Both the position numbers and the translations under genes were made by a program. This document shows positions 20,103 through 41,771 of a stretch of 41,771 nt of DNA, piece after piece. Numbering within the stretch: the first letter of the stretch is position 1; each line of letters starts with the position of its first letter. Source of the stretch: an uncultured Bacteroidota bacterium (GTDB lineage: Bacteria > Bacteroidota > Bacteroidia > Bacteroidales > GWA2-32-17); NCBI GenBank assembly GCA_903837285.1, contig CAILUD010000188.1, forward strand, positions 1 through 41,771, given 5' to 3'. The notes below the pieces were generated by a model. It was not told the origin of the DNA, searched no databases, and worked only from the letters and a program-made list of their open reading frames with translations.

Positions 20103-20121
20103 ATCCGCCGCTTTGAACTTC

Positions 20122-20148
20122 ACGGTGTTGTTGTAGGTGGTGTTAGCA
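20122..20148. repeat. attC-like repeat, partial copy (3' of the toxin gene)
   Basis: The 16-base block GTAGGTGGTGTTAGCA at 20133-20148 is repeated exactly at 21014-21029, and similarity extends further left (ACGGTGTTGTT versus ACGTTGTTATC). Both copies lie 3' of minus-strand genes. Only one arm is present here. Confidence 0.55.
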
Positions 20149-20262
20149 AATGTAAGTATTGTTGTTGTCGAATTTCATTCGATGTCAACGAGCTGAATAG
20201 TTTTCAATTTGCAAAAGTTTTCAACGAGAAGAGACGTTCTTTTAAACTAAATCTAAAAATAA

Positions 20263-20900: not shown

Positions 20901-21031
20901 TCTAACGGTTCAAGCTACGTAACGACGTGCATTTACTTGTAGTCGGTGTCAAACCGCTAAGAATTTATTTAATGTTAAAGTTGTCAAGTTGCCTATAACT
21001 GCACGTTGTTATCGTAGGTGGTGTTAGCACC
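20901..21031. repeat. 130-bp imperfect palindrome resembling an integron attC site
   Basis: The arm CTACGTAACGACGTGCA (20915-20931) pairs with TGCACGTTGTTATCGTAG (21000-21017), with one bulged base and one mismatch. The outer ends carry TCTAAC (20901-20906) and GTTAGCAC (21023-21030). Size, imperfect pairing and CTAAC/GTTAG ends fit an attC-like recombination site, but the exact R-box consensus is not met and there is no integrase in the window. Confidence 0.55.
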
Positions 21032-21041
21032 TGTATTTTAT

Positions 21042-23894: not shown

Positions 23895-24204
23895 AATTAT
23901 AGAAATTTTTTACAGAACTGTAAAGGTAAGAATTTATTGATTTAAGATTTTATTTTTTAATCAATTCAGAATATTTAAGTATGGAGATTTGTGAATGTGT
24001 TCAATTTTTATTTCAGAAATATCAAATTCATTGAATTTTATTACCTTTAGCATTGATAGTTTTAGGATTTTTTATTGAATCTTTAAAACTAAAATTCTTT
24101 GTCATGTTGAGCGTAGTCGAGACATCTATTTTGATTATTATTATAGATTCTTCACTTCGTTCAGAATGACATTTGTTTGAAATGTAAGCAAAAATAATAT
24201 TTAC
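23895..24204. other. 310-bp divergent intergenic region
   Basis: No gene is seen. It holds the possible promoter of the S46 peptidase gene near its left end and a complete copy of the dispersed hairpin repeat at 24100-24171. The rest is AT-rich without further structure. Confidence 0.6.
24100..24171. repeat. dispersed hairpin repeat, intergenic copy
   Basis: It begins TGTCATGTTGAGCG and ends TTCAGAATGACA, with ACATCT and AGATTCTTCACTTCG in the inner arms, so it folds as a long imperfect hairpin. The same family occurs inside three phosphatase genes downstream. Such TGTCAT...ATGACA elements are widespread between genes in Bacteroidota. Confidence 0.75.
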
Positions 24205-28796: not shown

Positions 28797-28919
28797 TTTT
28801 GTTTTATTCAATTAAAATTACTTAAAAATTTACTATTTTAGTATGCTATAATTTAAGAAGTCTATTCTTTTATTTCTGCTTTATTTGTTGTAATATGCAG
28901 TAAATTTTAAAGTGTAATA

Positions 28920-29016
28920 CCAACTATAATTATAAAATAGTACAACCAATTGCCACTCTTTTTAGAAGAAGGTAGGGAGATGAATAAAAAATGGGCTATT
29001 TTATAATTGTAACTGG
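28920..29016. repeat. 97-bp element with imperfect terminal inverted repeats
   Basis: The 21-base left end (28920-28940) and right end (28996-29016) are inverted copies matching at 17 of 21 positions, sharing the core ATTATAAAATAG. The interior is GC-richer than the flanks. It fills most of the 265-base gap between the channel gene and the lipoprotein gene. It may be a small MITE or a processed hairpin; no target duplication is clear. Confidence 0.5.
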
Positions 29017-29061
29017 TTTAAAAAGGTAGAATAATTAATTAAGGATTTTAATAATAATCAA

Positions 29062-30051: not shown

Positions 30052-32517
30052 ATGAATGTGTTTGTATACTTTATTAAAAGATTTTTGATCATAATAATTG
30101 TTTCTTTATTTATTGGTGCAAATTGTTATTCTCAAATTGTATTAAATGATAGAAAATCTGAAATTACAACTCCACAAATTGATTCTTTAAAAAATATTCT
30201 TAAAACTATAAAACCTGATACAATAAAAGTAAAAGTATTAAAAGAATTGTGTCAAGAATACATTGATCATAACTCCGAAAAAGCACTGCAATATGGTGAA
30301 CAAGGTCTACAGCTTTCTATTAAGTTAAATTATAAACTTGGGCAAGCCAATTGTCTTCGTTTGCTAGGAATTTATTATGATAATAATGGTAACTATAAAC
30401 TTGCTTTTGAGAATTATATAAAATCTTCTGAAATATATAGCCAGCTTGGAATAAAAGATAAAATGGCAAGTTGTTATACAAATATTGGAGTAATATTTTA
30501 CTCTCAGGGAAATCATTCTAAAGCACTAGAATTTTATCGAAAATCATTAAAACTATATAAAATATTAGGAAATGAAACTTCAATAGCATATTGTTATACA
30601 AATATTGGGAATTTATATCTAGATCAAAGTGATTATTCTAAAGCTGTTGAATATTTTCAGAAAGCAGAAAAAATTGCCGAAAAAGTTGGCGATAAATTAG
30701 TGATTGCTGCATGTAATGCTAATATTGGAGGAATATATTATTATCAACAATCATTTAGTAAGTCACTTGAATATTACAATAAAGCGCTTAAAATAAGCGA
30801 AGAAATTGACGATAAAAGTGGTTCAGCTAATTGCTTAAATAATATTGGTAATATATACTATAGCCAAAACTTTTTTAAAGAATCATTAGTGTTTTTTCAA
30901 AAATCTTTAAAAATTCGTCAAGAAATAGGCGACAATCAGGGTATCGCTTCATGTTATAATAATTTAGGGAATGTTAACAATGGTCAAAATAATTTTGTAA
31001 CTGCAAACGATTATTTTTGTAAGGCATTAAAAATATATGAAACTCTAGGCGACACTGGCTGGATCTCGGTCGTTTATTTAAATCTTTCGGAGTTAAATGT
31101 AAAATTAAAAAAATATAATATTGCTAAAGAATATGCAGAAAAAAGTTTATTGTTAGCTTCTAAAATTGGCGAATTGCAAACGGTTTCTTTGGCATACGAA
31201 AACCTAGCTAAATCATATAAAGGTTTATTTAATTATCAAAAAGCTTTTGAGAGTTATGAATTATTTAAAAAGGTAAATGATTCAATTTTCAATTCAGATA
31301 AACATCAGCAATTTGTTGAAATGGAAGCTATATACCAAGGCGAAAAGAAACAAAAAGAAATAGAACTTAAAGAGACTCAATTAGCAAAAAAGGATATTGA
31401 AGTTAAGCAAGAAAAAACCATGAAATATGCCTTTGTTATTGGATTTATTCTAATGATAATTTTATCAGGATTTATTCTTAAAAGTTATAGAGATAAAAGA
31501 AAGGCAAATCTTAAATTAAGTATACTTAACAATGAAATAACTATTCAAAGTCATAAAATTGAAGAAAAAAATGAAGAGCTAAATCAACAAAATGAAGAAA
31601 TTAGAACACAAAGAGATGAAATAGAATCGCAAAGAGATTTAGTTGAAGTTCAGAAAGAACATATTCAGGAAATTTTTAAACAGGTAACTGATAGTATTAA
31701 TTATGCAAAACGAATTCAAGAGGCTGTTTTACCTATTAGTATTGAATCAAGATCTGTATTAGGTGAACATTTTATACTTTTTAAACCTAAAGATATTGTT
31801 TCTGGAGATTTTTACTGGACAGTTAAAATAAATAATCTTCTCTTTGTTGCAGTTGCTGATTGTACCGGACATGGTGTTCCAGGTGCTTTTATGTCAATGC
31901 TTGGAATTAGTTTTTTAAACGAAATTGTACATAAGCAAGAAATAAAAAACGCTAACTTAATTTTAAATCATCTGAGAGTAGAAATTATTAATGCCCTTCA
32001 ACAAAAGGGTGTGCAGGGTGAACAAAAAGATGGTATGGATATTTCTTTGTTAGTTGTTAACGCAGACACAAATGAAGCGCAGTGGGCAGGAGCTAATAAT
32101 CCTCTTTACATCATTTCTTCTGTCATTCCGAGCGAACGTGAGGAATCTAGTCTGAATATAAATATAGCTGCGCATGAAAATTGTTCTTTTCAAACTCAGA
32201 ATGATAATAGAGAATTAATTGAACTTAAAGGTAATAAAATGCCAATTGCCATATACCCTCAAATGAATGAATTCACAAATCATGAATTTTTCTTACATAA
32301 AGGAGATAGCGTCTATCTTTTTACAGATGGTTATGCCGACCAGTTTGGTGGACTAAAAGGAAGGAAATTTATGTACAAACAATTTAAAGAAATTTTACTT
32401 CAAAACAATTATAAATCAATGATGGAACAAAAATCATTACTTGAAGTAGCTTTTAAAAACTGGAAAGGTGAATTTGAACAAATTGATGACGTGACAATAT
32501 TAGGAATTAAAATATAG
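30052..32517 (+). CDS. TPR receptor-like SpoIIE/PP2C phosphatase, array member 1
   Basis: Membrane protein of 821 residues. A signal peptide (about 1-28, ending CYSQ) is followed by eight TPR units of 40 residues each (about 95-415, of the SCYTNIG...YSKALEYYxKSLKI type), in the periplasm by topology. One membrane helix lies at about 457-478 and a charged coiled coil (QRDEIESQRDLV) at about 500-550. The C-terminal SpoIIE-type serine/threonine phosphatase has its metal-binding acids: SGDFYW, VADCTGHGVPGAF, KDGMD, FTDGYADQFGG and QIDDVT. It should remove phosphate from a cytoplasmic protein in response to periplasmic binding. Residues about 690-718 are an in-frame copy of a dispersed repeat. The next paralog starts 4 bases after the stop. 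Confidence 0.88.
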   Translation: MNVFVYFIKRFLIIIIVSLFIGANCYSQIVLNDRKSEITTPQIDSLKNILKTIKPDTIKVKVLKELCQEYIDHNSEKALQYGEQGLQLSIKLNYKLGQANCLRLLGIYYDNNGNYKLAFENYIKSSEIYSQLGIKDKMASCYTNIGVIFYSQGNHSKALEFYRKSLKLYKILGNETSIAYCYTNIGNLYLDQSDYSKAVEYFQKAEKIAEKVGDKLVIAACNANIGGIYYYQQSFSKSLEYYNKALKISEEIDDKSGSANCLNNIGNIYYSQNFFKESLVFFQKSLKIRQEIGDNQGIASCYNNLGNVNNGQNNFVTANDYFCKALKIYETLGDTGWISVVYLNLSELNVKLKKYNIAKEYAEKSLLLASKIGELQTVSLAYENLAKSYKGLFNYQKAFESYELFKKVNDSIFNSDKHQQFVEMEAIYQGEKKQKEIELKETQLAKKDIEVKQEKTMKYAFVIGFILMIILSGFILKSYRDKRKANLKLSILNNEITIQSHKIEEKNEELNQQNEEIRTQRDEIESQRDLVEVQKEHIQEIFKQVTDSINYAKRIQEAVLPISIESRSVLGEHFILFKPKDIVSGDFYWTVKINNLLFVAVADCTGHGVPGAFMSMLGISFLNEIVHKQEIKNANLILNHLRVEIINALQQKGVQGEQKDGMDISLLVVNADTNEAQWAGANNPLYIISSVIPSEREESSLNINIAAHENCSFQTQNDNRELIELKGNKMPIAIYPQMNEFTNHEFFLHKGDSVYLFTDGYADQFGGLKGRKFMYKQFKEILLQNNYKSMMEQKSLLEVAFKNWKGEFEQIDDVTILGIKI
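32121..32206 (+). repeat. dispersed hairpin repeat inside phosphatase gene 1
   Basis: It begins TGTCATTCCGAGCGAACGTG and ends CTCAGAATGATA. It is read in frame and adds about 29 residues (SVIPSEREES...QNDN) between NNPLY and ELIELKG, compared with the fourth paralog, which has LLRNG there. The inner arms have diverged. Confidence 0.75.
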
Positions 32518-32521
32518 AATT

Positions 32522-35029
32522 ATGAAAAATTTAAATTTTAAATTATTTTTATTCTGTGCAAATTTAATATTAGTGTTAAATGTTAATTCACAGGATTTAA
32601 TAAATAATAATAATTATTCTAAACAAGATACTTCCACAGTTAGAAAATTAATCGAATTAAGTGAACATTATCAGGATATTAATCCAGACTCTCAATTGTT
32701 TTGTTTAAACAAAGCTATAGTTTTAGCCACAACTTTAAAAAATAATGTGTCAATTGCAGATTGCAATGTGAATATAGGATTATTTCATGCAAAATCTAAT
32801 AACTTTAATAAAGCATTAAGGTATTTTACTACATCATTAAAATTATATAGAAAAGAAAAGGATAAGAAGGGAATTATAGATTGTCTTATAAATATTGGCT
32901 TAGTATACAATTATCAGGATGATTATCCTAGTTCAATTAAATATATTTCTATTGCTCTTTTGCAATCTATTGAAATAGCAGATAATAAACGAACTGGTAA
33001 ATGTTATAACAATTTAGGAATGACATATTCAAGTATAGGGAATTCGGATTCATCAAAAATTTGCTTTAATGAAGCTATTAGATTATATAAAACTATTGAT
33101 AACCAAAAAGGATTGGCAAGTTGTTATGGTAATCTAGCTAATTTATATTTTGATTTAGGCAAACATCAACTTTCAATTGATTATAATATTAAAGCATTAC
33201 AAATATCCGAAAAACTTAATAATAAATCAGAGATTTCCAATTATTATAATAATATTGGTTTAGTATATGAAAATATTGAAAATTATGAAAAGGCTATAGA
33301 ATATTATACTAATTCATTAAATATTGCGATAGATATTAAGGATAGTTTATCAATTGCATATTCATATGGTAATATTGGAAATGCTTATACTAATACTAAA
33401 AAATTTAAAGAAGCTGAAATTTATTTAAATAAATGTCTAGATATTTTAATAAAATTAAATCAATTGCATGGAATTGCAACTTGTTATAGTAGTATAGGTA
33501 TAATTGAAGCAGAATTAGGCAATTTATATAAATCAGAAAGTTATTTATTAAATGCTTTAAAAATTAATCTGGAAATAGATAATAAGCCTAGTATAATTGT
33601 TAGTTATAATAATTTATCTGGGTTATATGTTAGATTAAAACAATATAATAAAGCAATAGATTTTGCATTAAAAGGAGCTGCGCTTTCTGAAGAATTAGGA
33701 GCGGTTAGAAATCGTATTTTTTCATATCAGTATTTGTATTCAACTTATGATAGTTTAGGTGATTATAAGAAAGCCTATTATTATCATAAATTATTTAAGC
33801 AATATAATGATAGTATAAACAATGAACAGAATTACAATAATATTAATGATATTGAAGCAAAATATCAAAATGAAAAGAAACAATTAAAAATTGAAAATCT
33901 TGAAAAAGAAGATATTATTAAAACTTCTAAACTTCAAAAACAATTAATATTAATTATTTCATTTGTTATTGGGTTTGTGTTAATTTTATTATTCTCTATT
34001 CTGCTATACCGACTTTTTTTACAAAAGAAAAAAGCAAATATTTTATTGGCAAAAAGGAATACCGAAGTACTTCAACAAAAGGAAGAAATTTCAACACAAC
34101 GAGATGAAATCGAAGCTCAGCGTGACGAAATTGAAGCGCAACGCGACTTGGTAACAATACAAAAAGAAAGTATTGAAGAAATACATAAAGAAGTAACCGA
34201 TAGTATCAATTATGCAAAGCGAATACAGGAAGCAGTTTTGCCAATAAGTATTGAATCAAGATCTGTGTTAGGTGAACATTTTATACTTTTTAAACCTAAA
34301 GATATTGTTTCTGGAGATTTTTACTGGACAGTTAAAATAAATAATCTGCTATTTGTTGCGGTTGCTGATTGTACCGGACATGGTGTTCCTGGTGCATTTA
34401 TGAGCATGCTTGGAATTTCATTTTTAAACGAAATTGTACATAAACAAGAAATAAAAAACCCTAATCAAATTTTAAATCATCTAAGGGAAGAAATTGTATA
34501 TGCGCTTCAACAAAAAGGTGTGCAGGGTGAACAAAAAGATGGTATGGATATTTCATTGCTAGTTGTTAATACTGATACCAATGAAGCACAATGGGCTGGA
34601 GCTAATAATCCTCTTTACATCATTTCTTCTGTCATTCTGAACGTATGTGAAGAACAATTTTCTTGCGAAGCAAAATCTATTTCTAGTAATATAGATTCTT
34701 CGCAAGCTCAGATTGATAATAGAGATATAATGGAACTAAAGGGTAACAAAATGCCAATCGCCATTTACCCTCAAATGAAAGACTTTACCAGCCATGAATT
34801 TTCGTTGCAAAAAGGAGATAGTGTATATCTTTTTACAGATGGTTATGCCGACCAGTTTGGTGGTCCAAGTGGAAGAAAATTTATGTATAAACAATTTAAA
34901 GAAATGTTACTGCAAAACAATAATAAACCTATGAAAGAACAAAGAGAAATTCTTGAATTTGCATTTGAAAACTGGAAAGGTGAATTTGAACAAATTGATG
35001 ATGTAACGATTTTAGGTATTCGTATATAA
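32522..35029 (+). CDS. TPR receptor-like SpoIIE/PP2C phosphatase, array member 2
   Basis: Protein of 835 residues with the same layout as its neighbours: signal peptide (about 1-24, ending VNSQ), nine TPR units (about 75-435), a membrane helix at about 474-500, then a coiled coil with the heptad QRDEIEA twice before QRDLV. It ends in a SpoIIE/PP2C phosphatase whose acidic motifs are intact (SGDFYW, ADCTGHG, KDGMD, FTDGYADQFGG, QIDDVT). The TPRs differ strongly from those of member 1, but the phosphatase is nearly the same, with a 101-base stretch matching except for one base. Residues about 703-732 are a diverged, in-frame dispersed repeat. It starts 4 bases after the previous stop, indicating a common transcript. 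Confidence 0.87.
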   Translation: MKNLNFKLFLFCANLILVLNVNSQDLINNNNYSKQDTSTVRKLIELSEHYQDINPDSQLFCLNKAIVLATTLKNNVSIADCNVNIGLFHAKSNNFNKALRYFTTSLKLYRKEKDKKGIIDCLINIGLVYNYQDDYPSSIKYISIALLQSIEIADNKRTGKCYNNLGMTYSSIGNSDSSKICFNEAIRLYKTIDNQKGLASCYGNLANLYFDLGKHQLSIDYNIKALQISEKLNNKSEISNYYNNIGLVYENIENYEKAIEYYTNSLNIAIDIKDSLSIAYSYGNIGNAYTNTKKFKEAEIYLNKCLDILIKLNQLHGIATCYSSIGIIEAELGNLYKSESYLLNALKINLEIDNKPSIIVSYNNLSGLYVRLKQYNKAIDFALKGAALSEELGAVRNRIFSYQYLYSTYDSLGDYKKAYYYHKLFKQYNDSINNEQNYNNINDIEAKYQNEKKQLKIENLEKEDIIKTSKLQKQLILIISFVIGFVLILLFSILLYRLFLQKKKANILLAKRNTEVLQQKEEISTQRDEIEAQRDEIEAQRDLVTIQKESIEEIHKEVTDSINYAKRIQEAVLPISIESRSVLGEHFILFKPKDIVSGDFYWTVKINNLLFVAVADCTGHGVPGAFMSMLGISFLNEIVHKQEIKNPNQILNHLREEIVYALQQKGVQGEQKDGMDISLLVVNTDTNEAQWAGANNPLYIISSVILNVCEEQFSCEAKSISSNIDSSQAQIDNRDIMELKGNKMPIAIYPQMKDFTSHEFSLQKGDSVYLFTDGYADQFGGPSGRKFMYKQFKEMLLQNNNKPMKEQREILEFAFENWKGEFEQIDDVTILGIRI
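34630..34717 (+). repeat. dispersed hairpin repeat inside phosphatase gene 2
   Basis: It begins TGTCATTCTGAACG and ends GCTCAGATTGATA, with ATAGATTCTTCGCAAGC in the right arm. In frame it adds about 30 residues at the same point of the phosphatase domain as in gene 1. It is the most diverged of the three copies. Confidence 0.65.
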
Positions 35030-35033
35030 TGTT

Positions 35034-37415
35034 ATGAAGATAAATGATTTAAAGTATTTATTGCTCTTTTTATTGTGCCTTTTTGTTTTAGCATTAAGAT
35101 CGCAAGAAACTAAAATAATTGATTCTCTTAAACAGGCTCTTAAAAGCTCTAAACACGATACAACACGTTGTAGTATTTTAAATGAGTTGATAACTGCAGA
35201 ATATGATGAAAAGGTTTGGCCAAAATATAATCAGCAATTACTCGATATTTCGCTTAAAAATATAAAAATTTCAAATCCAAATGAAAGAAAATTTTATTTA
35301 AGTTGTTATGCAGTTTCATTAAATAATTTTGGTTATTTATATGTGAAACAAGGTGATATTTTAAAAGCATTTGAATATTTTAATAAATCATTACCTATAC
35401 AGAAAGAAATAAATGATAAATTAGGAATGGCTGGTTCATTATTGAATCTTGGTATGTTATTCCGTCAGCAAGGAAATATAACAAAAGCCTTAGAATACTA
35501 TCACAGTGCATTGAAACTGCAAATTGATGTTAATAACAAAACCGGTATTGCTGATTCATACAATAATATAGGTTTTATTTATGATAGTCAGGGAGAATAT
35601 TTAAAAGCATATGAATATTACAATAAAGCATTAAATATTAATATTCAAATTAATAACAAAAATGGTATTGCAATATGTTATACTAATATTGCATTTCTTT
35701 ATAATACAAAAAGTGAGCTTTTCATTTCTGGATCAAATGAACAGCGAGCTAAAAATGGTCATAAACAAGCTTTAGAATATTTAAATAAGTCTAATAAAAT
35801 TCAGGAAGAAATAAATGATAATGAAGGACTGGCAAGCTCATTAAATAGCATTGGTAATTTATACGAGAATTATGGAGATCCAAATTGTAATTTATCAATT
35901 GATGAATGTATTATTATTAGTCAAAAGAAAGCATTTGATTATTATATAAAAGCTTTAGAATTACGTAAAGACATTAATAGTAAAGCAGGGATAGCAATTT
36001 CATATGAATCTCTTTCGGCATTAATGTTAAAGCAAAATAAAATTGAAGAAGCATATAAATATGCAGATTTAAGTATGAAAACTGCTAAAGAATTAGGATT
36101 TCCTGAAGCTATAAAAGATGCAGCCATTCTTCTAAAAATGATATATGAAAAACAAGGAAAATATAAGCAATCAATGGAAATGTTTGAATTATATATTCAA
36201 ATGCGTGATAGTATTATAAACAATGAAAACAGGAAAGCAACATTTAAAAAGCAATTTCAGATTGAATATGAGATTCAGGCAACAAAGGATAGTATTACAA
36301 ATGTAACAAAGGTTAAAGAAGAGCAATATAAACACGAGCAGGCAATTAAACAGCAACGGATGTACACTTTTGGCGGGCTTTTTGGATTTATCCTTATGCT
36401 AGTTGTTGCGGCTGTCTCGTATTATGCTTTCAAAAATAAAAAGAAAGCAAATATCTTATTAGAACATAAAAATTTTGAAATTAATCAGCAAAAAGAAGAG
36501 ATTTCCACTCAGAGAGATGAAATTGAGTTGCAAAGGGATTTAGTAACAATTCAGAAAGAAGAAATAGAAGAGATTCATAAAGAGGTTACTGATAGTATAA
36601 ACTATGCAAAACGAATACAAGAAGCTGTTTTGCCGGTTAGTAATATTGCAAGATCTGTTTTAGGCGAACACTTTATTCTGTTTAAACCAAAAGATATTGT
36701 TTCGGGTGATTTTTACTGGACAGTTAAAATAAATAATCTGCTATTTATTGCAGTAGCTGATTGTACAGGACATGGAGTTCCAGGAGCTTTTATGAGTATG
36801 CTAGGTATTAGTTTTTTAAATGAGATAGTACAAAAACAGGAAATAAATAAAGCAAACCAAATATTAAATATTCTAAGAAAAGAAATCATTAACGCACTTC
36901 AACAAAAAGGTGTGCAGGGTGAACAAAAAGATGGAATGGATATTTCATTACTCATTGTTAATACAGATACATATAATGCACAGTGGGCGGGAGCTAATAA
37001 TCCTTTATACGTCATCCCTTCTATCATTCCTTCTGTCATTCTGAACGAACGTGAAGAATCTGTCTCTAGTAATACAGATTCTTCGGATTTGCCTCAGAAT
37101 GACAATTATAATTTAGTTGAACTTAAAGCAAACAAAATGCCTATTGCTATTTACCCTGAAATGAAAGAATTTGCAAATCACGAATTTATATTGCATAAAG
37201 GCGATTCTGTATATTTATTTACTGATGGATATGCCGATCAGTTTGGTGGTTTAAAAGGAAGAAAATTTATGTATAAGCAATTTAAAGAAATATTATTGAA
37301 GCATTCAAATAAACCATCGTCTGAACAAAAGGAATTATTGGAATCTGCTTTTGAAAACTGGAAAGGTAATTATGAACAAATTGATGATGTAACAATTTTG
37401 GGAATAAGAATTTAA
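35034..37415 (+). CDS. TPR receptor-like SpoIIE/PP2C phosphatase, array member 3
   Basis: Protein of 793 residues: signal peptide (about 1-23), TPRs (about 85-385) of 40-residue type, two of them stretched by inserts (a stretch around SGSNEQRAKNGHK, and NCNLSIDECIIISQ). The membrane helix lies at about 443-465, the coiled coil has one QRDEIE heptad, and the SpoIIE/PP2C domain has all acidic motifs. The in-frame dispersed repeat (residues about 667-690) is the best preserved of the three copies. It is preceded by short duplications of its own beginning (PSIIPSVIL), as if the repeat end had been copied. It starts 4 bases after the previous stop. Confidence 0.87.
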   Translation: MKINDLKYLLLFLLCLFVLALRSQETKIIDSLKQALKSSKHDTTRCSILNELITAEYDEKVWPKYNQQLLDISLKNIKISNPNERKFYLSCYAVSLNNFGYLYVKQGDILKAFEYFNKSLPIQKEINDKLGMAGSLLNLGMLFRQQGNITKALEYYHSALKLQIDVNNKTGIADSYNNIGFIYDSQGEYLKAYEYYNKALNINIQINNKNGIAICYTNIAFLYNTKSELFISGSNEQRAKNGHKQALEYLNKSNKIQEEINDNEGLASSLNSIGNLYENYGDPNCNLSIDECIIISQKKAFDYYIKALELRKDINSKAGIAISYESLSALMLKQNKIEEAYKYADLSMKTAKELGFPEAIKDAAILLKMIYEKQGKYKQSMEMFELYIQMRDSIINNENRKATFKKQFQIEYEIQATKDSITNVTKVKEEQYKHEQAIKQQRMYTFGGLFGFILMLVVAAVSYYAFKNKKKANILLEHKNFEINQQKEEISTQRDEIELQRDLVTIQKEEIEEIHKEVTDSINYAKRIQEAVLPVSNIARSVLGEHFILFKPKDIVSGDFYWTVKINNLLFIAVADCTGHGVPGAFMSMLGISFLNEIVQKQEINKANQILNILRKEIINALQQKGVQGEQKDGMDISLLIVNTDTYNAQWAGANNPLYVIPSIIPSVILNEREESVSSNTDSSDLPQNDNYNLVELKANKMPIAIYPEMKEFANHEFILHKGDSVYLFTDGYADQFGGLKGRKFMYKQFKEILLKHSNKPSSEQKELLESAFENWKGNYEQIDDVTILGIRI
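37034..37104 (+). repeat. dispersed hairpin repeat inside phosphatase gene 3
   Basis: Both arms are intact: TGTCATTCTGA pairs with TCAGAATGACA (11 bases), and AGAATCTGT pairs with ACAGATTCT (9 bases). It encodes SVILNEREES...LPQND in frame. Just upstream, GTCATCCC and ATCATTCC (from 37011) look like partial duplications of the left arm. Confidence 0.8.
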
Positions 37416-37438: not shown

Positions 37439-40018
37439 ATGAAATTTTACAAAAATAAAAAAGCAAATAAAAATTTGATGTTTGTTCCTCTTAACAGACT
37501 TAATTTGCTATATTTTTTATTAGTATTTTATTTATCAAGCATCTGTAATTATTCTTCTGCGCAAACCAAAGCGGTTGATTCACTTAATCTTATAATTAAG
37601 AATGCTAAACACGATACAATTCGAATGCGTATTCTTAATGAAATGGCTAAAACAGAAAATGATGACAGCCTTATAATAAATATAGATAATAAAATAGAAA
37701 TTCTAGCAAAGAAAAATCTGGCTTCAAGTCCAACAGCAGTTGTAAGAAATACCTGTTTACAATATAGAGCAAATACAATTTATAGAAAAGGACTTAGTTG
37801 TTACAGGCAAAGTGATTATTCAAAAGCCATTGAATATTACAATCAAAGCTTAAAAATTCGTGAAGAAATAAGCGATAAAATTGGAATCTCATATTCCTTA
37901 AATAGCATTGGTTTAGTTTATTCTAATCAGGGCGATTACGCAAAAGCAATTGATTATTACAATAAAAGCTTAAAAATAAGTACCGAGCTAAAAAATAAAA
38001 GCAGAATTTCTACTACTTTATATAATATTGGAATTGTATATTACAATCAGGGTGATATTCCTAAAGCGCTCGAAAATTATAACAAAAGTTTAAAAATTGA
38101 TAAAGAGCTAGGTGATAAAGGAGGAATATCATTTTCATTAAATACAATAGGAGTTATTTATTACAACCAAGGCGATATTCCTAAAGCAATAGAATATTTT
38201 AATAATAGTTTAAAAATTTTAGAAGAAATTGGTGACAAAAGAGGTATTTCAAATGCTTTAGTCAATTTTGGTATGATTTATTCTGAGCAAGATGATTTTA
38301 TTAAAGCATTAGAATATTTTAACAAAAGTTTAAAAATACTTAATGAAATTGGAGATAAAAACGGAATTTCATTGTCATTAAATAATGTTGGAATAGTATA
38401 TTCAGAATTGGCAAATGAAGCAAAGTTAAAACATGATGATAAAGGCTGCGATTCTTTAATAAATATATCTCTTGATAATTATAATAAGAGTATGAAAATT
38501 TGTGAAGAAATAGGCGACAAAAGTGGCATCTCTGCTTCATTAAATGGAATGGGACAAATTTATTTTAGTCATAAACAATACAATAAATCAATAGAGTATT
38601 TCAATAAAAGTTTAAAGCTAAGTGAGGAATTAGGCGATAAAAGTGGTATTTCAGCCTCATTAAATAATCTTGGAAAAATTTATCTAATAAATAACGAAAC
38701 TCAAAAAGCCTTATCCTGTGCTCAAAGGGCATATAATCTTACAAAAGAGACAGGTTATGTTCAAGATATTAAAAGTGCTGCCAAACTATTAGAAGAGATT
38801 TATGCTAAACAGGGTAATTATAAATTATCGAGATTGTATTTTGGCGAATATATTGCAATGAGCGATAGCATGAAAAAAGATGAAAATCAAAAACTAGTTC
38901 AACAAAAATATTTTCAATATCAATATGAAAAGCAGGCAAGCATTGATAGCATTGCAAATAGCAAAGCAATGGAAATAAAAAATATTGAGCTGGGGAGACA
39001 AATTGCCGAAAGTAAAAAACAAAAAATTATTATTGTATTTGTTGTTTTAGGATTAATCTTTATAGCTATAGTTGCAGTTTTTATATTTCGTTCGTTGCGA
39101 ATTACTCGTAAGCAAAAAAATATTATCCAGGACCAAAAGCAAATGGTTGATGAAAAGAATTTCATGCTTAATCAACAAAATGAAGAAATATCTACTCAAC
39201 GTGATGAAATTACTGCTCAACGTGATTTAGTAACATTACAAAAAGAAGAAATTGAGTTTATACATAATGAAGTTTCACAAAGTATAAATTATGCAACTCG
39301 TCTGCAATCTGCTATTTTGCCAGGATTTGAAATTATTAAAGATTTTGTTTCTGATCACTTTGTTTTATATAAACCCAAAGATAAAGTTAGTGGCGATTTC
39401 TACTGGTGGTCAGTAGTTGAGGACCATTTAATTATTGCAGTAGCCGATTGTACAGGTCATGGAGTACCCGGAGCATTTATGTCTATGCTTGGCACTTCAT
39501 TTTTAAGAGAAATTGTTGTAAAAGAATATATGACTAATCCTGGAATAATTTTAAAACGTTTACGTAAAGAAATTATTCATACTTTAAAACAAAAAGGTAC
39601 AGCAGGAGAGCAAAAAGACGGAATGGATATGGCTCTTATTGCAATAAATAAAGATAATCTTGAATCGCTATTTGCAGGAGCAAATAACCCTCTATATTTG
39701 TTAAGAAATGGTGAGTTGATAGAGATTAAAGGAGATAAAATGCCTATTTCAATTCATTTGCGAATGGAACCTTTTAAAAATAATAATATAAAATTAGAAA
39801 AAGGCGATTGTTTATACCTGTTTACTGATGGTTTTGCCGATCAGTTTGGCGGTCCAAAAAACAGGAAGTTTATGTACAAACAATTTAAGGATATATTGTT
39901 ATTAAATTGTAATAAACCCATGTCAGAGCAAAAAGAGATTATTGAAAGTGCCTTTGATAATTGGAGAGGAGAGGGCGAACAGATTGATGATGTTACTGTT
40001 GTTGGAATAAAAATTTAA
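37439..40018 (+). CDS. TPR receptor-like SpoIIE/PP2C phosphatase, array member 4
   Basis: Protein of 859 residues. It has a longer, basic N-terminus before the signal peptide (the hydrophobic core starts near residue 22, cleavage after SSAQ). The TPRs (about 110-450) are highly regular 40-residue units (SLNSIGLVYSNQGDYAKAIDYYNKSLKI). The membrane helix lies at about 528-550, then a coiled coil and a SpoIIE/PP2C domain with SGDFYWW, ADCTGHG, KDGMD, FTDGFADQFGG and QIDDVT. Unlike members 1-3 it has no dispersed-repeat insert: PLYLLRNGELIEIKG is continuous. Its phosphatase is also the most diverged. Spacing of 23 bases from gene 3 and a possible promoter suggest it is the head of a second part of the array. 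Confidence 0.88.
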   Translation: MKFYKNKKANKNLMFVPLNRLNLLYFLLVFYLSSICNYSSAQTKAVDSLNLIIKNAKHDTIRMRILNEMAKTENDDSLIINIDNKIEILAKKNLASSPTAVVRNTCLQYRANTIYRKGLSCYRQSDYSKAIEYYNQSLKIREEISDKIGISYSLNSIGLVYSNQGDYAKAIDYYNKSLKISTELKNKSRISTTLYNIGIVYYNQGDIPKALENYNKSLKIDKELGDKGGISFSLNTIGVIYYNQGDIPKAIEYFNNSLKILEEIGDKRGISNALVNFGMIYSEQDDFIKALEYFNKSLKILNEIGDKNGISLSLNNVGIVYSELANEAKLKHDDKGCDSLINISLDNYNKSMKICEEIGDKSGISASLNGMGQIYFSHKQYNKSIEYFNKSLKLSEELGDKSGISASLNNLGKIYLINNETQKALSCAQRAYNLTKETGYVQDIKSAAKLLEEIYAKQGNYKLSRLYFGEYIAMSDSMKKDENQKLVQQKYFQYQYEKQASIDSIANSKAMEIKNIELGRQIAESKKQKIIIVFVVLGLIFIAIVAVFIFRSLRITRKQKNIIQDQKQMVDEKNFMLNQQNEEISTQRDEITAQRDLVTLQKEEIEFIHNEVSQSINYATRLQSAILPGFEIIKDFVSDHFVLYKPKDKVSGDFYWWSVVEDHLIIAVADCTGHGVPGAFMSMLGTSFLREIVVKEYMTNPGIILKRLRKEIIHTLKQKGTAGEQKDGMDMALIAINKDNLESLFAGANNPLYLLRNGELIEIKGDKMPISIHLRMEPFKNNNIKLEKGDCLYLFTDGFADQFGGPKNRKFMYKQFKDILLLNCNKPMSEQKEIIESAFDNWRGEGEQIDDVTVVGIKI

Positions 40019-40035: not shown

Positions 40036-41771
40036 ATGCAAAAACGAATAATTTTTATTGTTCTATGTTTTTCGTTTTTTGTTGTTAATTCGTTTTGCTT
40101 TTCGCAGAATACCAGAATTGATTCTCTAATAAATGCCCTTAAAACAATAAAAGCAGATACTTTAAAGGTTAAAACTTATAATAAACTTTTTTTAGAATTT
40201 GAATATGAGGATACAATAAAAGCCCGAGAATATTTAAATAAAGCACTTGCAATATCAAAAAAAAATAATTATAAAAATGGACTTGCAGATACTTATTTAT
40301 ATTTTGGATATTATTATGAAGATAATGGAAATTATTTAGATGCATTAAAAAATCATCTCGAGAGTTTAAAAATATGTAAAATTTTAAATGATAAAAGAGG
40401 TATTGCAAGTTCATATAACAATATAGGAAATATTTTTCAGGCACTAGGCAATTATCCAGAAGCGTTAAAAAATTATTTATCTTCTTTAAAAATTAAAGAA
40501 GAATTAGGAGATAAAGTAGGCATTGCACGTGCTTATAATAATATTGGAATTATTTATAGAGGTCAAAACAATTATAAAGAAGCATTAAAAAATTATAATA
40601 TTTGTTTAAGGTTATGCGAAGCTTTGGGCGATAAAGCAGGTGTTGCAAGTTCGTATAATAATATAGGGCTTATTTGTTTTTATACACGCAAATATGAAGA
40701 AGCATTAACAAATTACTTTGCATCGTTAAAAATTGTAGAAGAAATAGAAGATAAAGTTAGTATTGCATATACTTATAATAATATTGGAGGAGTATATTTT
40801 GATCAAGGCAATTATAACGAAGCTTTAAAAAGATATTTGGCTTCTTTGACAATAGAAAAAGAATTAGGTAACAAAGCAGGTGTTGCAAGTTCTTATATAA
40901 ATATTGGTGATGTTTATACTAAACAAAAGAAATACAAAGAAGCTAAAGAATTTCTTGTAAAAGCAAAAGAATTTTCAAATGAAATTGGACATAAAGAATA
41001 TTTAAGAATTTCATACTGCAGTTTAACAGTTCTAGATAGCGCTATAGGTAATTATAAAGGAGCTTATGAAAATTATAAGCTTTATATTTTGTATCATGAT
41101 AGTATAGATAATGAAGAAACTCGAAAAAAAACAATTCAATCTCAAATGACTTTTGATTTTGAGAAAAAAGAAGCTGTTGCAACTGCCGAACATAAAAAAG
41201 AACTAGAAAATCAACATTCTTTAGCCGAAGAAAAAAGTAGGAAACAGAAAATAGTTATAATGTTTGTAGTATTTGGTCTATTGTTAGTACTTGTATTTGC
41301 AGGGTTTATTTTCCGTTCATTAAGAATTACAAGAAAACAAAAGAAAACAATTGAAAAACAAAAAATAGTTGTAGATGAGAAGAATATTCAGTTAGGGCAA
41401 CAAAATGAAGAAATTTCAACTCAGCGTGATGAAATAGAAGCCCAGCGCGACGAAATTGAAGCTCAACGTGATTTGGTAACAATTCAAAAAGAAAGTATCG
41501 AAGAAATTCATAAAGAAGTAACAGATAGTATTAATTATGCAAAACGAATTCAGGAAGCTTTACTTCCGGTTACTGAATCTTCTAGATCAATATTAGGAGA
41601 ACATTTTATACTTTTTAAACCTAAGAATATTGTAAGTGGAGATTTTTACTGGACTACAAAAATAAATAATTATTTAATTGTAGCAGTAGCAGACTGCACA
41701 GGACATGGAGTTCCCGGAGCTTTTATGTCAATGCTTGGTATTAGTTTTTTAAATGAAATAGTACAAAAGCA
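40036..41771 (+). CDS. TPR receptor-like SpoIIE/PP2C phosphatase, array member 5 (partial)
   Basis: Open from the ATG at 40036 to the window end with no stop, 578 whole codons. It starts with a signal peptide (MQKRIIFIVLCFSFFVVNSFCFSQ), then TPR units (ASSYNNIGNIFQALGNYPEA and similar) to about residue 340. A membrane helix lies at about 406-428, followed by a coiled coil with the heptad QRDEIEA twice before QRDLV, as in member 2. The phosphatase begins (SGDFYW, ADCTGHGVPGAFMSMLG) and is cut at LNEIVQK, so whether it carries the dispersed-repeat insert cannot be seen. It begins 17 bases after the stop of member 4. Confidence 0.88.
   Translation, partial: MQKRIIFIVLCFSFFVVNSFCFSQNTRIDSLINALKTIKADTLKVKTYNKLFLEFEYEDTIKAREYLNKALAISKKNNYKNGLADTYLYFGYYYEDNGNYLDALKNHLESLKICKILNDKRGIASSYNNIGNIFQALGNYPEALKNYLSSLKIKEELGDKVGIARAYNNIGIIYRGQNNYKEALKNYNICLRLCEALGDKAGVASSYNNIGLICFYTRKYEEALTNYFASLKIVEEIEDKVSIAYTYNNIGGVYFDQGNYNEALKRYLASLTIEKELGNKAGVASSYINIGDVYTKQKKYKEAKEFLVKAKEFSNEIGHKEYLRISYCSLTVLDSAIGNYKGAYENYKLYILYHDSIDNEETRKKTIQSQMTFDFEKKEAVATAEHKKELENQHSLAEEKSRKQKIVIMFVVFGLLLVLVFAGFIFRSLRITRKQKKTIEKQKIVVDEKNIQLGQQNEEISTQRDEIEAQRDEIEAQRDLVTIQKESIEEIHKEVTDSINYAKRIQEALLPVTESSRSILGEHFILFKPKNIVSGDFYWTTKINNYLIVAVADCTGHGVPGAFMSMLGISFLNEIVQK

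Follow-up and report, generated by a model that had tools for sequence, protein, structure and literature searches.

A palindromic repeat as in-frame loop DNA in SpoIIE/PP2C phosphatase paralogs of an uncultured Bacteroidota bacterium

Introduction

Palindromic repeats have been described inside bacterial protein genes. Rickettsia palindromic elements (RPEs; Ogata/Claverie) lie in frame within protein genes (PMC2229807, PMC3733652), and intragenic REPs are known from many bacteria, in assorted proteins (PMC3733652). REPs tagged GTAG or CGTC, often present as dimers, encode 20–30 residues for which a role as linkers or loops has been suggested (Di Nocera et al. 2013, PMC3733652). As far as the accessible parts of these reports go, the locus described here resembles the RPEs in that a dispersed palindromic element, also present between genes, is carried in frame, and its translation forms a stretch that the protein tolerates. 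RPEs, however, occupy varied sites in many unrelated proteins, whereas here the coding copies found lie at a single hairpin of one paralog family, and its loop DNA appears to pass among paralogs independently of the genes; among the REP heads located, RPE-like in-frame insertion in many unrelated genes is not apparent. With the GTAG/CGTC-tagged REPs the locus shares REP hairpins that are often dimeric, coding and loop-like. Those REPs sit in varied unrelated proteins, though, with no exchange between paralogs mentioned in the accessible part of the report, and the tag here is mostly TGTC.

Cassette gene conversion provides a second point of reference. In the antigenic variation of pilE and vlsE, short tracts from related sequences, supplied by silent donors, alter a surface segment encoded at one expression locus. 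The loops described below likewise suggest short tracts copied into a gene so as to alter a surface segment, although here the copies seen are the phosphatase genes themselves and the segment originated as a dispersed repeat. We found no report in the open-access literature of one recurrent repeat site in a paralog family with exchange of loops. In-frame palindromic elements are already known; what seems to be new is that one site in a family of paralogs is used repeatedly and its content exchanged.

A cluster of SpoIIE phosphatase genes

The window, meaning the whole stretch of 41,771 nt analysed here, is the entire contig C188, one of the 233 contigs that make up a 4.29-Mb draft genome. It carries the following phosphatase genes:

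30052-32517, plus strand: gene 1, TPR, coiled coil and SpoIIE/PP2C phosphatase (Pfam TPR_12 and SpoIIE over cut-off; coiled coil judged by eye)
32522-35029, plus strand: gene 2, TPR and SpoIIE/PP2C (Pfam)
35034-37415, plus strand: gene 3, TPR and SpoIIE/PP2C (Pfam)
37439-40018, plus strand: gene 4, TPR and SpoIIE/PP2C, without insert (Pfam)
40036-41771, plus strand: gene 5, truncated by the contig end upstream of its loop; the rest lies on contig C213, where the loop holds the gene-1-type insert

Pfam finds TPR plus SpoIIE in all four complete genes, with PF07228 scores of 62.6, 69.2, 62.8 and 77 bits (cut-off 25). In an alignment of 63 sequences D56, D211, D264 and D265 are invariant and D39 nearly so; we take these five residues to have a metal role in the PP2C domain. 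On the Pfam matches, the modelled PP2C fold and the invariant aspartates, the window genes are predicted to be SpoIIE/PP2C phosphatases, a class that acts on an anti-sigma-factor antagonist or a comparable partner.

The end of the window (41632-41771) is identical over exactly 140 nt to the end of C213. The phosphatase cluster therefore runs on into C213, and gene 5 is the first of the three insert-bearing SpoIIE copies on that contig. The SpoIIE profile has 49 matches genome-wide; in ten genes a long loop divides the domain into two matches, which leaves ∼39 domains.

The dispersed REP-like element

The reference copy of the repeat is intergenic:

24100-24171, plus strand: complete REP pair with two inverted heads (TGTC...GACA)

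Its head at 24146-24171 on the minus strand matches the head pattern without mismatch. That pattern, a 26-base standard head with a TGTC tag, T:A-type, and up to three mismatches, has 67 matches in the genome, against none for the reversed control pattern. One of the 67 carries a CGTC tag, a count that reflects a pattern which itself asked for TGTC. Of 75 unique heads, taken from DNA chosen by the T:A-type pattern with up to three mismatches, 68 can pair stem position 7 with position 23, using T:A, C:G, G:C or A:T. Because complementarity is kept through varied base pairs, the repeat is, on this sequence evidence, a hairpin element of the REP type.

An inverted second head is present in many of the 30 copies printed, and none of the 67 standard heads lies inside an open frame of 360 nt or longer that extends at least 60 nt beyond it on both sides. 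The repeat thus described appears mainly intergenic and often paired head to head, as expected of REP or REPIN-type elements. The genome also has seven matches to Y1_Tnp. No REP head was found within the ≤1.5 kb examined on each side of any of them, and a RAYT transposase gene flanked by the repeat was not apparent. CGTC REPs are likewise tied to no transposase in the accessible part of the published account (PMC3733652).

A 14-base palindrome, TCCGCCGCGGCGGA, is nested whole or in most of its length in several REP copies (L019, L023, L025, L027 and L032), as if a micro-element had entered the repeat; it occurs 30 times in overlapping DNA.

Repeat-derived inserts in frame at one site

Three window genes carry a copy of the repeat in coding sequence, and a fourth has an unfilled site:

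32121-32206, plus strand: REP-derived insert of gene 1, the same insert as in two C213 genes
34630-34717, plus strand: REP-derived insert of gene 2, long-arm type (sequence comparison)
37034-37104, plus strand: REP-derived insert of gene 3, its arms without mismatch (sequence comparison)
39698-39721, plus strand: empty loop of gene 4, LLRNGELI, eight residues (sequence)

All three genic copies are in frame at one site, with NNPLY upstream and ELKG or ELKA downstream. The preliminary description of this DNA had placed the intergenic repeat in frame at one site of three phosphatase genes and had reported a fourth paralog without it; coordinates, frame and the empty gene 4 loop all hold. Its account of perfect arms in gene 3 was right for the 11-base arm (TGTCATTCTGA/TCAGAATGACA), but the second arm (GAAGAATCTGT/ACAGATTCTTC) is 11 bases long, not 9. 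Where this insert begins, at 37017-37040, there is a near-duplication of a 12-nt unit.

Compared at this site, nine SpoIIE paralogs on four contigs have REP-type loops: three in the window, three on C213, one on C203 and two on C167, the second of which (167b) is degenerate. Paralogs without an insert read NPLY-LLRNGELI-EIKG or similar. A tenth long-loop gene, on C117, has a different long loop that is not REP-type. Likeness to repeats was also looked for in the long loops L059, L061 and L065 of this genome, and none was seen.

Compared with the common intergenic form, the coding REP head has one extra base. This longer head has eight matches in the source genome (G000), all of them in SpoIIE loops, so coding copies of REP heads were found in SpoIIE loops alone, given the absence of standard heads from long open frames. 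In the sister genomes, SpoIIE loops hold four of five longer heads in G003, the single one in G004 and one of two in G001, and G002 has none (0/0). We considered whether the longer head is found exclusively in coding copies and dropped the idea: with one intergenic case each in G001 and G003 this is nearly but not strictly true.

Structure of the insertion site

An AlphaFold model of the gene 3 domain, built with 62 relatives, has a mean pLDDT of 89 and a pTM of 0.86. Confidence falls below 50 at residues 158–169, inside the insert, between strands 138–141 and 175–177. In this model the insertion site would be the tip of a β hairpin, and its very low confidence is as expected of a flexible loop. 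We take the tip to be directed away from the metal site, going by the general PP2C fold. The nearest solved structure, and the closest solved homolog by sequence as well as fold, is the SiaA PP2C domain of Pseudomonas aeruginosa (PDB 6k4e; E 2e-30, TM 0.80); it differs in having a short hairpin, LYA-SDGEEV, with no insert. The head census and the paralog loops, together with the model as far as it goes, support the original suggestion that a dispersed hairpin repeat has turned into in-frame coding sequence tolerated as a surface loop.

Inserts younger than their flanks

The inserts of paralogs 203 (on C203) and 167a (on C167) are identical at 103 of 108 nt. The flanks of the same two genes are 62% and 56% identical in DNA, with third positions below 50%, and their proteins are 43% identical upstream and 47% downstream of the loop. 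A second set gives the same picture: the inserts of gene 1 and two C213 genes (213a and 213b) agree at 87–88 of 90 bases and at every third position, against ∼0.8 overall and ∼0.6 at third positions in the flanks. When the insert of a C213 gene was used as query, gene 1 matched at 97% and the other C213 gene at 96%; the genome has three full-length copies, each of them in a SpoIIE loop. For neither of these two shared inserts did we find a full-length donor elsewhere in the source genome, inside or outside genes.

We compared 17 non-independent pairs from five genomes, selected for their similar inserts. Where both genes have the same residue, they use the same codon in 85–100% of cases in the insert vs 55–72% in the flanks (Fisher p 8e-6 to 8e-3, to be used as a guide only given the non-independence). 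The insert is more alike than every other window of equal length in 14 of the 17 pairs; in the other three another window outdoes it, a sign of some background conversion. The shared tract ends at most 62 nt from the insert in all but one of 15 pairs, the exception extending 167 nt upstream. Judged by these comparisons, the gene copies are far older than the insert DNA they contain.

Identity between 203 and 167a ends within a few nucleotides of the element termini on both sides. Such sharp ends look more like the insertion of an element than like homologous conversion. These two loops also share an unusual tail, which is seen again, eroded, in 167b, where it matches at 32 of 36 bases at best. 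We dropped the idea that the tail is a change private to the source genome, since it is apparently also found in L287, a non-orthologous gene of G003 that resembles the 167b form. The tail may have moved between paralogs more than once, or it may be old; either way, its presence outside the source genome slightly lowers our confidence in the history proposed below.

Orthologs and the paralog tree

The genus sample comprised five genomes (G000-G004). Orthologs of 167a in G003 and G004 are collinear with it on both sides of the loop and 83–86% identical in nucleotides upstream, 81–85% downstream. At the loop itself the alignment breaks: 167a has a REP loop, and the G003 and G004 genes have KSEK-type loops. 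The 167a loop is near-identical to that of its paralog 203, unlike those of its own orthologs. A loop difference of the same kind separates 167b from its two orthologs. The loop of the G004 ortholog of 203 (88%) is of REP type and ends in a plain REP tail. Collinear orthologs in sister genomes can thus bear unrelated loops at one site.

We removed the loop from the PP2C domain and built a tree from 58 of 61 extracted rows, leaving out three cut by contig ends. On this tree the REP-type loops require nine changes, at least six of which are forced by well-supported branches.

The loop site in other Bacteroidota

The loci read gave 132 rows, from which 126 SpoIIE loops under 29 genome labels were kept, the rest being duplicates or having an unclear end; the sample represents the closest relatives and is not a census. 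At least 18 residues are present in 85 of the 126 loops. Several unrelated repeat-like types occur, including KSEKLKVKSEK...STFNFQL, QSAVSSMQSAF...LPTATASCQL, KKFDNLKM...LQISQL, MPPFEKVASL and VIASEAQRNEAI...ADRNDDYQL. Distant homologs with the residues of the window genes but no repeat, which would have spoken against an origin from the repeat, were not seen in the loci read; other loops stand there, many of them repeat-like themselves.

Single-strand folding of the 84 loops of at least 54 nt, compared with shuffles, gave a median z of −1.87, vs −0.02 for flank windows of equal length (Wilcoxon p 2e-10, with near-copies among the loops, which are not independent). A z below −2 was reached by 39 loops and two flank windows, so a clear hairpin signal is confined to 39 of the 84 long loops. 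As a set, the loops are palindromic.

Several genomes repeat the distribution seen in the source genome. In G004 one loop has 22 matches; all eight copies at ≥97% lie in SpoIIE loops, and the others are short or weak. In the MEOF genome (GWF2_33_38) all ten long copies of one loop, at ≥88%, are in SpoIIE loops. Among 20 further MEOF matches with loci, six loci correspond to SpoIIE loops, from five genes, and the other 14 fall outside long genes or at gene edges (17 more matches, having no loci, were left out). In G001 five of eight loop matches are in SpoIIE loops (79–100%), and the three short ones are in open frames below 330 nt. JACREX has a VIASEAQ loop, of which two partial copies occur at other places in its genome, within open frames shorter than 320 nt.

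A second hairpin just upstream, before AQFAGANN, has extra repeat-like residues in L151 and L165 (MEOF) and in L071 (C117), for example IDNSQFIINNYYHAQFAG. In L177 (second PP2C) and L188 the loops consist of near-perfect palindromes, such as GAGACGGGACATGTCCCGTCTC and GACCCGCAAGGTCA...TGACCTTGCGGGTC.

Origin and exchange of the loops

We propose that dispersed palindromic repeats are repeatedly captured at the hairpin tip and that a loop, once captured, spreads to other paralogs as short copied tracts, in the manner of a cassette, a history to which we assign a probability of roughly 70%. The hairpin tip of the SpoIIE/PP2C domain would be a flexible surface loop that tolerates extra residues. 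Palindromic repeats, REP-like in the source genome, would have been caught there in frame several times, from unrelated families in different lineages. Loop DNA of one paralog would then reach the same site of others by short-tract recombination (gene conversion or an equivalent), and the conserved GANNPLY and KGDKMP blocks flanking the loop would aid recombination between paralogs. Such copying would homogenise loops within a genome and let orthologs of sister species differ, while the rest of the gene descends vertically. We infer gene conversion as the mechanism, as well as the order and direction of events and the neutrality or use of the loop. We speculate that the hairpins themselves provoke exchange, for example via breaks at the hairpin.

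Each loop might instead be an independent insertion of a mobile repeat, by a site-specific enzyme such as a Y1/RAYT-type transposase, at a target conserved across paralogs and with no copying between them. The several unrelated repeat-like types at a single site and the seven Y1_Tnp matches suit this explanation, and it is mainly the sharp ends of 203/167a that keep repeated transposition to one target under consideration. The shared inserts, however, have no other full-length copy in the genome, genic or intergenic; no REP head lies within the ≤1.5 kb examined on each side of the Y1_Tnp matches; the repeat types have unrelated ends; and other shared tracts enter the flanks, by up to 62 nt. 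Independent insertion throughout is, in our judgement, unlikely. The preliminary description had favoured a single REP insertion in an ancestral gene, followed by duplication with the frame kept. The longer head is common to REP loops of G000 (8 of 9), G001, G003 and G004, and one founding REP loop in the genus may have existed. Yet the insert is far more alike than the flanks between old paralogs, the REP label needs its nine changes on the tree, and the unrelated loops of orthologs contradict such a history, which we now consider very unlikely.

The youth of the insert could also be only apparent, if it were old in all paralogs and held by very strong purifying selection on DNA, RNA or protein. 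Inserts identical at all third positions in gene 1, 213a and 213b would fit, but other paralogs and orthologs vary freely at the loop in both sequence and length, and AlphaFold confidence there is very low; we find this highly improbable. That short-read assemblies mixed loops among paralogs deserves consideration because the genomes are drafts throughout, mostly MAGs, and repeats are a usual cause of misjoins. Against this, the shared inserts are ∼60–130 nt long and a few substitutions apart, they lie within ortholog alignments collinear on both sides, and the same pattern recurs in five separate assemblies, which leaves an artefact little credence.

If capture and copying are the correct history, repeat DNA enters proteins through a single reusable site in a large family of paralogs, not as scattered accidents, and loop segments evolve on a history separate from that of their genes. 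Phylogenies or annotations resting on the loop will then mislead. The family would also offer a natural system for measuring rates of short-palindrome capture and of copying from gene to gene, and for seeing whether the copying is triggered by hairpin DNA. It is tempting to see the loop as a working variable segment, with ∼40 parallel SpoIIE phosphatases re-tagged from repeats by copying between paralogs, for partner specificity or pathway insulation. We hold this to be doubtful; were it true, the loop would constitute a natural loop-diversification system for sensor phosphatases.

Other repeats in the window

Two further repeats lie elsewhere in the window. Direct repeats of 39 nt, 85% identical, are found at 20116-20154 and 20997-21035, and the ∼0.8 kb between them has no listed ORF of at least 100 aa. 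An imperfect inverted repeat at 28904-28940 and 28996-29032, between two genes, has 37-nt arms that are 73% complementary and 55 nt apart.
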